Source: Terriglobia bacterium
GTDB taxonomy: Bacteria; Acidobacteriota; Terriglobia; Acidiferrales; UBA7541
DNA length: 34,163 nucleotides
Assembly (NCBI GenBank): GCA_020073705.1
Contig: JAIQES010000046.1
Coordinates: 1 to 34,163, forward strand
Direction of reading: 5' to 3'
Below the pieces are notes generated by a model. That model had not been told where the DNA came from. It did not search any database and saw only the letters and a program-made list of their open reading frames with translations. Shown piece by piece: positions 688-34,163 of this stretch. Positions within the stretch are counted from its first letter, which is position 1, and each line of letters opens with the position of its first letter. Made by a program: the position numbers and the translations under genes.

Positions 688-882
688 ACGGCACGCACGC
701 TGTCGTCGCAGCCGCTGTCATCGTTGTGGCACATGCCTCCCACACCAAGAAGTTCAAAGATTTCGTATGCACTGTGTTTTGCCAAAAGAAAGCGGAAGGG
801 GAGAGCCGGATAGGGCCTGGGGTACTCGGAAGCGATGCCCTAGCCCTATCTGAACGGGATAACGCCCGAGAAGCGGTGCCGG
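688..882. other. Intergenic spacer before the IS30-family element
   Basis: No convincing gene is seen between the amidase stop and the left inverted repeat of the IS. Short open frames here lack ribosome binding sites and family signatures. The segment GCCGGATAGGGC near 804-816 has an inverted counterpart, GCTCTATCCGGCC, near 2128-2140 beyond the right IS end. The two could mark an older, larger element boundary or be chance. Confidence 0.4.
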
Positions 883-2103
883 CTCAACTGGTCGATGCAA
901 CACCATCTGGTATAAATCTCTTTTCCTAAAAGGTGGTGTTCATGATGCAAGCGAGACGATGGAAGCTGTCTTTGGCCCAGCGGGCCGATATGTGGAGGCG
1001 TTGGAAGGTTGGTCAATCGTTACATGAGATTGGTCGAGCGCTCGGCAAGTCCCATGTAGTAATTCAATTTCTGTTGGCGCGTCACGGTGGGATTGCTCCA
1101 CCCACTCGTCGCCGTTCGCGACGGGTACTCAGCTTGGCCGAACGCGAAGACATCTCCCGCGGAATCGCCAGCGGCAGCTCAATGCGGGTCATCGCCCAGC
1201 GTCTGGGTCGCGCTTTCTCCACGGTAAGCCGGGAGGTAGCCCGCCATGGCGGGCGCGCGCAGTATCGAGCCAACCAAGCCGATCAGCAGGCCTGGGAGTC
1301 GGCCCTGCGGCCCAAGCCGTGCCTGCTGGCCACCCACAGCAAGCTGCAAGAGATCGTTGCGCGTAAACTGATGCAGGACTGGTCGCCGCAACAAATTGCC
1401 GGCTGGCTGAAGCAGCGCTACCCGGGGGACGAGAGCCTGCGCGTGTCGCACGAAACGATCTATCGCACCCTGTTCCTTCAAGCGCGCGGAGCGCTGAAAC
1501 AAGAGCTGGTTCGGCATCTGCGATCGCAGCGGCGGATCCGCCGCTCACGGCACTCTAGCATTCATGGACACTCCCAAGGCCGGATCATCGATGCCGTCTC
1601 CATTCGCGAAAGACCTGCGGAAGTCGCAGATCGTGCCATTCCCGGCCATTGGGAGGGTGATCTGTTGCGCGGGACGCGCAACAGCCACGTGGCTACGCTG
1701 GTAGAACGTCATTCACGTTTCTGTATGCTGGTGAAGGTGCCCGGGAAGGACACCGCTACCGTGGTGGCCGCCCTGAGCCAGCACGTGCGACAACTCCCGG
1801 CGACGTTGCGGCGCTCGCTGACCTGGGATCGCGGGCTAGAGATGGCCCAGCACAAAAGCTTCACGATGGCTACCGATGTACAGGTTTACTTCTGCGATCC
1901 GCAAAGTCCTTGGCAACGCGGCTCGAACGAAAACACCAACGGGCTATTACGGCAATACCTGCCGAAGACGGCGGATCTGTCCTGCTACTCGCAATCGGAC
2001 CTGGACGAAATCGCTCTGCGTCTGAATCAAAGGCCACGAAAAACGTTGGGATTTCAAACTCCGGCGGATAGACTGCAAGCTAGTGTTGCAACGACCACTT
2101 GAG
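883..2103 (+). mobile_element. IS30-family insertion sequence, complete with inverted ends
   Basis: The element is about 1.22 kb: one transposase gene bracketed by imperfect inverted repeats at 883-904 and 2082-2103. By eye 19 of 22 positions match; the core is TGGTCGATGCAACACC on the left and TGGTCGTTGCAACACT on the right when reverse-complemented. The transposase stop codon (2100-2102) lies inside the right repeat, which is normal for compact IS elements. No clear direct target duplication is visible. The same terminal sequence recurs near 32190 and 32370 around a gene-less element, so this family probably mobilises or has left MITE-like derivatives in the genome. Confidence 0.85.
942..2102 (+). 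CDS. IS30-family transposase
   Basis: A 386-residue DDE transposase. Counting from the GTG at 933 (three codons before the chosen start), there is an N-terminal region with two helix-turn-helix-like segments (about residues 12-50 and 65-105, the latter including LSLAEREDISRGIASG). The catalytic core follows, with D243 in GHWEGDLLRG, D299 in TWDRGLEM and E333 in SNENTNGLLRQY. The D-to-E gap of 33 residues and the NENTNG box are characteristic of IS30. The ATG at 942 is preferred because AAGGTGG lies at a suitable distance upstream; the GTG at 933 overlaps that site. The frame is uninterrupted and all three acidic residues are present, so the enzyme may be active. It ends within the right inverted repeat. 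Confidence 0.93.
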   Translation: MMQARRWKLSLAQRADMWRRWKVGQSLHEIGRALGKSHVVIQFLLARHGGIAPPTRRRSRRVLSLAEREDISRGIASGSSMRVIAQRLGRAFSTVSREVARHGGRAQYRANQADQQAWESALRPKPCLLATHSKLQEIVARKLMQDWSPQQIAGWLKQRYPGDESLRVSHETIYRTLFLQARGALKQELVRHLRSQRRIRRSRHSSIHGHSQGRIIDAVSIRERPAEVADRAIPGHWEGDLLRGTRNSHVATLVERHSRFCMLVKVPGKDTATVVAALSQHVRQLPATLRRSLTWDRGLEMAQHKSFTMATDVQVYFCDPQSPWQRGSNENTNGLLRQYLPKTADLSCYSQSDLDEIALRLNQRPRKTLGFQTPADRLQASVATTT

Positions 2104-2329
2104 ATCACCGGGCGCATTAGTAAGAGGGCGCTCTATCCGGCCGCAGGAAAGGTATTTTTCTTGACTTCCCCTTTTATAGAACTTTTCGGGCACTAAGGGA
2201 CAAGGCTACTCTTCTTACAGAAAGCTTCTTGGGGTTAACTGATCTGTACTCCAAAAGATAGATATATCCTGCAGCTGTTCGAGGGCCTGATAATTTGGGT
2301 CTTTTGGCATTGCGCTTGAACTAGCCCAA

Positions 2330-31873: not shown

Positions 31874-32112
31874 CAACCGAGGCATTGATCTTCAGGACTT
31901 AGCGGTGGAGAGTGTCCGAAGTGAACTGCTACAAAGGTCTTCATACTCCAAATTAGGCAGCTTTCTGAGGAGGTGGATACTCCTCTTAACCTGGCGATTG
32001 CTCCCGAGTGAAGGCGTACTCTGAATCAACATTCTTGGCTTATTAACACAGAAACCATCGGACATCGAGACGATCGTCACGAGCACGCCTTACCAACAAA
32101 ATCGGATTCCGC
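31874..32112. other. Gene-free spacer
   Basis: About 240 bases with no recognised gene or repeat. AGGAGGTGGATACTCCTCT near 31968-31986 is an imperfect inverted repeat that might act as a stem-loop after the DUF4410 gene. Confidence 0.3.
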
Positions 32113-32180
32113 CCGAGAAACGCTCTTATCGGAAAGTGGCCCGAGACGCACACCGCCGAAAATCCCACATTCCGATAAGC
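32113..32180 (+). repeat. Palindromic repeat of the TTCCGATAAG family
   Basis: CTTATCGGAA at 32125-32134 and TTCCGATAAG at 32170-32179 are perfect inverted copies 35 bases apart. They are preceded by CCGAGAAACG and followed by GCGG. The same order occurs at about 33945-34020 and, on the other strand, at 6655-6732. The second arm merges directly into the MITE-like element. Confidence 0.6.
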
Positions 32181-32396
32181 CGGGCGGTCTCAATGGGTCG
32201 ATGCAACACTTGCTCGAAGTCTTCTTGTAGGAGTCTACAAGGCTGATTTCGTTCGCGAGCGTTGATTCAAATGGAACACTGCCCTGTTTAGGTTCTGATT
32301 AAGGAGTGCCGTACAGATCGATTCTCGAAGGGAAGTATTGTCAGATCAACCGATTAGATAGCGTTGCATCGACCGATTGAGCTCGCACGACTTATC
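32174..32396. mobile_element. MITE-like element with IS30-type inverted termini
   Basis: The element is about 223 bases with no gene. Its ends match as inverted repeats over about 36 positions, 30 identical by eye. GATAAG, a GCG-rich stretch and CTCAAT lead into GGTCGATGCAAC on the left (32174-32209) and, reverse-complemented, on the right (32361-32396). The inner 20 bases from 32190 match 18 of 20 with the left end of the IS30 element at 883. It therefore looks like a non-autonomous derivative that an IS30-family transposase could recognise. It ends 5 bases past the stop of the membrane protein gene on the opposite strand. A related copy starts at 34028. Confidence 0.65.
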
Positions 32397-32401
32397 AGGA
32401 G

Positions 32402-33076
32402 TTAGCCTCGTTGTTCTATATTCAGTGGAGCGCGTTTTCTTTCCAGCCAGTAGGCTATTCCGGCGAATGCCGAGTAAGAGACTAATGCGGTAACCGCAGC
32501 TGCCTTGTCAGAAGTTGGTGGAGGCCCAAAGAAAATGTACGCTTGAACAGCCAGCATGATGAAGCCAAAAATCACAACGCCGAAGCCGCCGCCACGAGAT
32601 ACCCGTGTTGTCGTTTTCATGTAGAGATACATCCCACTGAAGAGGACAGCGATTTCGAGCAAGAAGGCAAATGCCGGATAGTTCCAGAGTCCGAGTCCCA
32701 CCTTGAAGGAATTGTCATACAACGGCAAATCGGGGCGATGCACAAGCCAATCAAGCACCCAGTGAGAGAACACGGCTGCGCCAACCAATGCGGCGGCCGA
32801 CAAGCCATTGGCTTTGCGAAACACGTAATAGGCGATGCCTGCGGCGACTGACCACAACATTGCTCCTAGCAGGCTGTGGGTGTACGGCATGTAATAGAGG
32901 TCGAGTGGATTGGTAGCCGTGATTCCAGGAGTGATACGAACCTTTTCGATACCGAGGAGCACAAAAATGCTCCAAAACACATCAAGCAACTGCACAGCGA
33001 TGAAGAGGACCCACAGTGGAATGGGGTTCTTCGCCGCTTTTGCCGCCAGGCTTGGTCCGTAATGACCTACAAACAC
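32402..33076 (-). CDS. Multi-pass membrane protein, YdjM-like (metal-dependent hydrolase-type)
   Basis: A 224-residue protein with about six hydrophobic segments. The N-terminus MFVGHYGPSLAAKA, the internal MPYTHSLLGAMLWS and SHWVLDWLVHRPDLPLY carry the histidines and aspartate expected of the YdjM/LexA-regulated membrane hydrolase group (PF04307-like), where they are thought to bind a metal. The C-terminal part has PPPTSDKAAAVTALVSYSAF and a basic tail. Function is unknown. No strong ribosome binding site precedes the ATG at 33076. The gene is alone, and its 3' end abuts the MITE-like element. Confidence 0.7.
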   Translation of the reverse strand: MFVGHYGPSLAAKAAKNPIPLWVLFIAVQLLDVFWSIFVLLGIEKVRITPGITATNPLDLYYMPYTHSLLGAMLWSVAAGIAYYVFRKANGLSAAALVGAAVFSHWVLDWLVHRPDLPLYDNSFKVGLGLWNYPAFAFLLEIAVLFSGMYLYMKTTTRVSRGGGFGVVIFGFIMLAVQAYIFFGPPPTSDKAAAVTALVSYSAFAGIAYWLERKRAPLNIEQRG

Positions 33077-33172
33077 TTAGTTCATCCGTATCTGCTGCTA
33101 TTTTCCAGTCGAATTAACCCTACGCCAATTTCAGCCCAAAAACCAGTCTCCTAAGTCCGACGAACAGTTCTC

Positions 33173-33210
33173 AACTCCTGAGAAACGGGATTCTCGGTAA
33201 CTGGCCCGAT
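33173..33210 (+). repeat. Half-copy of the TTCCGATAAG repeat family
   Basis: AACTCCTGAGAAACGGGATT followed by CTCGGTAACTGGCCCGAT matches the first half of the repeat at 33945 and the reverse complement of 6655-6732. The second arm is absent here, so this is a partial copy. Confidence 0.5.
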
Positions 33211-33944: not shown

Positions 33945-34020
33945 CCAACTCCTGAGAAACAGGATTATCGGAAGGTGGGAAATTGTCCCCTGACGCTCTG
34001 AGCCACATTCCGATAAGTCG
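33945..34020 (+). repeat. Palindromic repeat of the TTCCGATAAG family
   Basis: CTCCTGAGAAACAGGA, then TTATCGGAA at 33965-33973 and TTCCGATAAG at 34008-34017, repeat the arrangement at 32113-32180, including CCACATTCCGATAAG before GCGG. The two arms are inverted copies about 34 bases apart. Confidence 0.6.
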
Positions 34021-34027
34021 TGCGGTT

Positions 34028-34163
34028 TCAATGGGTCATCGCAACAGTGGCTCGAAGTCTACTCGCTGGAGTCTCAAACCCCAAAGTCTTTCGTGGGCGT
34101 TGATTTAATCGCAGTGCTACTTTGTCCAGGTCCGATTGAGCGTAGCGGGACAGGTCGGTTCTC
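34028..34163. mobile_element. Second, degenerate MITE-like copy running to the window edge
   Basis: TCAATGGGTCATCGCAACAG at 34028-34047 corresponds to the left end of the element at 32190. The following GCTCGAAGTCT, GGAGTCT and GCGTTGATT blocks align in order with 32212-32268. TCCGATTGAGCG near 34133 resembles the right-end sequence, but the core is altered. The copy is diverged and may continue past the window. Confidence 0.5.

Follow-up and report, generated by a model that had tools for sequence, protein, structure and literature searches.

A 205-bp element at positions 32,183–32,387 of the window (34,163 nucleotides, the whole of contig C77 in the 78-contig, 3.79-Mb genome of a Terriglobia bacterium) is very probably a MITE derived from an IS30-family insertion sequence (IS) by an old internal deletion, moved in trans and inserted in the centre of a REP-like 34-nt palindrome with duplication of 2 bp. 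The target and its duplication are read directly from the sequence, as are the copies, the borders and the IS30 homology of the element. The old deletion would have left a gene-free element keeping both ends of the IS, which the transposase of related full-length IS30 copies would move in trans and insert, just as it would the IS copies, into the centre of the palindrome, duplicating 2 bp. The MITE lies between two convergent genes, and insertion at such a place probably costs the host little.

The element is short, non-coding and bounded by 28-bp terminal inverted repeats, in keeping with the length of 70–300 bp, the terminal inverted repeats and the lack of coding capacity given for bacterial MITEs in the available part of PMC3733652. 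Unlike bacterial MITEs in general, it is IS30-derived and belongs to one lineage that extends over several genera.

Borders and target site duplication

The inverted arms at 32,174–32,210 and 32,360–32,396 are 37 nt long and 84% complementary, confirming the inverted ends of about 36 bases with about 30 matches described in an earlier note on this DNA. That note took the whole inverted repeat as element and set its extent at 32,174–32,396 (223 bases). The element is real, but its proper borders are narrower: the inner 28 bases of each arm belong to it, while the outer 9 are halves of the target palindrome and include the 2-bp target site duplication (TSD). The left terminal inverted repeat (32,183–32,210, plus strand), which lies at the end corresponding to the transposase-3′ side of the putative parent IS, matches the right one (32,360–32,387, minus strand) at 23 of 28 positions. 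The flanking letters in the window read CG on both sides (32,181–32,182 and 32,388–32,389, neither assigned to a strand).

The borders rest on aligned copies together with TSD statistics. We aligned 66 copies from 20 genomes, seven from this genome and 59 from others, the latter a selection of mostly long matches from a longer match list; two were not full length and were dropped. Among the remaining 64, a border-offset test finds an exact 2-bp TSD in 40, the IS30-type duplication that the earlier note had proposed to look for, and none in the other 24. The identity of the TSD letters is 0.72 compared with 0.47 in shuffled copies, a value not reached in any of 500 shuffles. The base preceding the conserved start is G in 92% of copies and the base following the end is A in 92%, and both are therefore counted as element bases. 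A 3-bp TSD, our first reading by eye, was rejected, as the offset test favours 2 bp with one extra element base on each side.

The terminal motif CTCAANNGGTCGWTGCAAC, allowing up to 3 mismatches, occurs five times in the window against 0.11 expected, and none of 100 shuffles reaches five. At the same threshold the genome contains 44 matches, compared with 18 for a reversed-pattern control; 38 of these have 0–2 mismatches, one further match with 3 is a true IS end (window position 34,027), and the remaining five look like chance. A DNA search of the genome recovers six further full MITE copies with 81–88% identity, together with a copy truncated by the start of a contig, so that seven full copies lie at different places. 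Besides the MITEs and two complete IS described below, the count of termini yields ten transposase-5′ and ten transposase-3′ IS ends, many of which lie at the edge of a contig or close to it; this suggests that up to about ten more IS copies, some truncated, broke the assembly. The motif is not scattered through the genome without inverted partners, the pattern that the earlier note had named as speaking against its reading: the true ends without a partner are at the edge of a contig or close to one, except for a few that are apparently truncated (C12:468, C74:9305 and C36:40578).

The similar length of the copies and the conserved blocks in their interior across five genus codes might also be expected of a conserved regulatory RNA or gene with IS-like ends by chance, and the whole element does fold better than shuffled sequences (z of –5.2 on the plus and –4.6 on the minus strand). 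We nevertheless consider this explanation very improbable. Taken by itself, the interior has no better fold than shuffled sequences (z of –0.75, with 45 of 200 as good), and the strong fold of the whole element is therefore ascribed to its paired ends. Consensus pairs are absent from the 64-copy alignment, the codon-phase values are flat (0.24/0.22/0.21, no signal), and the window has no Rfam match; interior fold, consensus pairs, codon phase and Rfam likewise signal no function beyond transposition. The preferred reading remains that of a MITE.

Relationship to IS30-family insertion sequences

Two complete IS serve for comparison. One lies in the window itself, a 1,233-bp IS30-family IS at 877–2,109 (plus strand) with TSD GG/GG and an intact transposase gene (933–2,102); the earlier note had placed an IS30 element at 883, correct as to family and intact transposase and now given its borders. 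The other lies on contig C66 (5,166–6,396) with TSD CG/CG as read by eye. Their transposases are both open, 389 aa long and 77% identical to each other, and both contain HTH_38 and rve domains above cut-off. Among named relatives, the C66 transposase is closest to proteins from a Terriglobia MAG, Edaphobacter and Granulicella, at 77–81%. The window also contains a third relative, the transposase-3′ end of another IS30 copy (34,021–34,163, plus strand), which adjoins a split repeat unit at 34,003–34,020 and runs off the contig end.

Aligned with the C66 IS, the MITE matches 118 of 168 positions counted from the transposase-3′ end and, at the 5′ end, 31 of 34. On this homology it is best described as an internal deletion of an IS30-family IS, joining about 168 bp from the transposase 3′ side to about 34 bp from the 5′ side, with about 1 kb of the IS missing; the deletion event would be an old one. 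Three MITEs in other genomes (L197, L216 and L235) have a transposase-3′-type end on both sides, with a right end like CATTGAGACCAC and nearly perfect inverted repeats.

The earlier note tied the MITE to the IS at 877–2,109. The terminal likeness on which this was based is confirmed, the left end of that IS sharing 18 of 20 bases with the left arm and 17 of 20 with the right arm, and this IS has, besides its intact transposase with both domains, a 2-bp TSD and one flank that resembles the repeat unit (10 of 14). That the MITE derives from it and depends on it alone is, however, improbable. The MITE is closer to the C66 IS, both over the two homologous parts (70% and 91% identity, against 62% and 85% for the 877–2,109 IS, which matches at 98 of 157 positions on the 3′ side and 23 of 27 on the 5′ side) and at the left terminus (26 of 28 compared with at best 23 of 28), and the ten further IS ends of either type also count against a single source. 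Judged by these identities, the C66 IS is the closer relative in this genome. What stands of the earlier link is that the 877–2,109 IS belongs to the same group, as its 77% identical transposase indicates, so that it could also act in trans. Since even the best IS end in this genome is only 70% identical to the MITE, we consider the direct parent not found.

In a tree of the shared part, a 97% branch separates the 64 MITEs from 17 IS ends, and all 64 copies form one old MITE lineage. A further row labelled as an IS, L015, is the MITE at C36 and is not counted among the IS ends. Genome labels are clustered on this tree (34 changes compared with 59.9 after shuffling), and near-identical copies occur in different surroundings within one genome, for example in G023 and G044, indicating that copies moved after the genomes parted.

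The relationship to IS30-family IS, as claimed in the earlier note, is thus borne out by copy number, TSD, target and partial IS homology. IS30-family elements transpose by a copy-out-paste-in route via circular or dimer intermediates, and their target duplications range from 2 to 3 bp. The duplications found here are 2 bp long, CG/CG at the MITE and GG/GG at the 877–2,109 IS, and the target is symmetrical; for IS30 itself, a duplication of 2 bp is given in the available part of PMC9333248. The system resembles IS30 and IS1655, both of the IS30 family, in its transposase with HTH_38 and rve domains, its inverted ends, its 2-bp duplication and its near-palindromic hot spot, and differs from IS of this family in that the MITE has no transposase and the target is a single repeat family.

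The palindromic repeat as target

The MITE splits a 34-nt palindromic unit into a left half at 32,165–32,182 and a right half at 32,388–32,405 (both plus strand), each including one copy of the TSD. Rejoined, the site reads CCACATTCCGATAAGCCGACTTATCAGGAGTTAG and is identical at 32 of 34 positions to an uninterrupted unit on contig C74 of the same genome (L062). An intact neighbouring unit in the opposite orientation lies at 32,106–32,139 (minus strand, match to model R1), and the window contains two more, at 33,171–33,204 and 33,945–33,978 (both minus strand). Among the 150 of 1,928 candidates across the genome that were scored with a covariance model built from 27 units, at least 49 distinct uninterrupted units reach E ≤ 0.001 (51 matches, two places being matched on both strands). 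The repeat is a repeated palindrome whose 34 nt fall within the 20–40 bp of REP elements.

In this genome, insertion into the repeat is the rule. Of the IS ends of this genome, 22 of 24 adjoin a half-unit matching at 10 or more of 14 positions, as do all seven of its MITEs, compared with 1.3% and 2.5% of random window positions; in other genomes, 40 of 57 copies do so when scored against the consensus of this genome. The overall composition of the flanks of the 64 copies follows the symmetrical pattern CYGATAARY-SS-RYTTATCRG, and 6 or more of 9 possible pairs around the TSD are complementary at 35 of the 64 sites, compared with 1.2% of window positions. Within a copy, the left half pairs with the right half no better than in shuffled copies (5.09 and 4.99, respectively), which indicates that the target is one consensus rather than a set of covarying palindromes.

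The units form clusters instead of being scattered through the genome, each gap between genes in a cluster containing about one unit; clusters lie at C47:48.5–56.2 kb (L278), C68:23.7–25.5 kb (L279), C24:22.4–25.7 kb (L280) and 32.1–34.2 kb of the window. In five mapped regions, most units fall between the longest ORFs and some overlap predicted short ORFs of about 85–126 aa. Four units, on C74 (L098), C24 (L084), C2 (L102) and C66 (L091), are interrupted at the centre by a different short sequence, TTATAAAAGGGGCGCCCTTTTATAA or TTCTATAAAA-like, which may be a further very small element that inserts at this target.

Runs with about one palindrome between successive genes, for example at C47:48–56 kb, are also reminiscent of an integron-like attC array, in which the palindromes would be recombination sites and the MITE a passenger. 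This is hardly credible here: no integron integrase above the curated cut-off occurs in the genome, the genes between the units include ordinary ones (a tRNA m1G methyltransferase, a PfkB kinase and a universal stress protein), and no core of the GTTRRRY type, the integron attC motif, was seen when the units were read by eye. A RAYT-driven REP was also considered and rejected. The one weak PF01797 match (30.5 bits, 213 aa; L208, C7:95,895–96,146) does not adjoin units, and its 3.2-kb locus contains zero units and one chance-like partial match. ORFs beside this RAYT-like gene contain repeated 'HRLKPVL'-like words, a hint of a different repeat family.

The repeat is best read as a REP-like target. 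Insertion into palindromic repeats, extragenic ones in their case, is shared with the REP-targeting IS treated in PMC1525189, the available part of which names the families IS3, IS110, IS4, IS256 and IS5. IS1655, of the IS30 family, reaches only 2/13 and 2/6 in the table given there, in contrast to the 22 of 24 IS ends that adjoin the repeat here.

Distribution and putative partner transposases

With at most the eight best candidates scored per genome, MITE matches at E ≤ 0.001 are found in 27 of 101 genomes (this one and 100 relatives), which represent 5 of 43 genus codes; IS ends rather than MITEs account for some of the weaker ones. The 64 full-length copies come from 20 genomes in five genus codes of one family. 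Among 396 genomes from across the phylum, with the two best candidates scored in each, matches at E ≤ 1e-12 occur in this genome and in two genomes of another family (f11), where the elements are about 200 bp long and have the same two ends with a diverged middle. As only the best candidates were scored, absence from a given genome is a weak statement. A clear orthologous empty site was not found; in G004 no MITE and no unit lies next to the neighbouring gene, but the upstream neighbourhood there may also differ.

Transposase matches at E ≤ 1e-100 were found for 8 of the 20 MITE genomes, compared with 4 of the 81 others (Fisher p = 0.0002, not corrected for kinship). Six of the other twelve MITE genomes contain transposase fragments or broken copies at E ≤ 1e-15, and in the remaining six no transposase of the C66 type is found at this threshold. 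The IS30 HTH model PF13936 gives only weak matches near the cut-off in these same six, which include G044, a genome 97% complete in 30 contigs with near-identical MITE copies. Two of the copies in G044 lie within 2 kb of each other in opposite orientation (L247 and L237, C10:903–2,738). In these six genomes the partner may have been lost in some lineages, may lie in unassembled parts or may be another IS.

The element is of an ordinary kind and well preserved; its strict choice of target and the age of its lineage are less usual. We put forward as a tentative proposal, somewhat short of an even chance, that one ancient IS30-derived MITE lineage has persisted in two or more families of Acidobacteriota, some of whose genomes have no detectable partner IS, by staying almost exclusively within a dispersed palindromic repeat, which would serve as a harmless niche, so that repeat, IS and MITE would form a stable three-layer community. 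A literature search at the level of titles and abstract openings found no description of an IS30-derived MITE of Acidobacteria. The element is a clear example of a non-autonomous member of the IS30 family with exactly defined borders, duplication and target. Its strict single-repeat target poses the testable question of what in the transposase reads the palindrome, and its presence in genomes without a detectable partner that of how a MITE outlives its parent.
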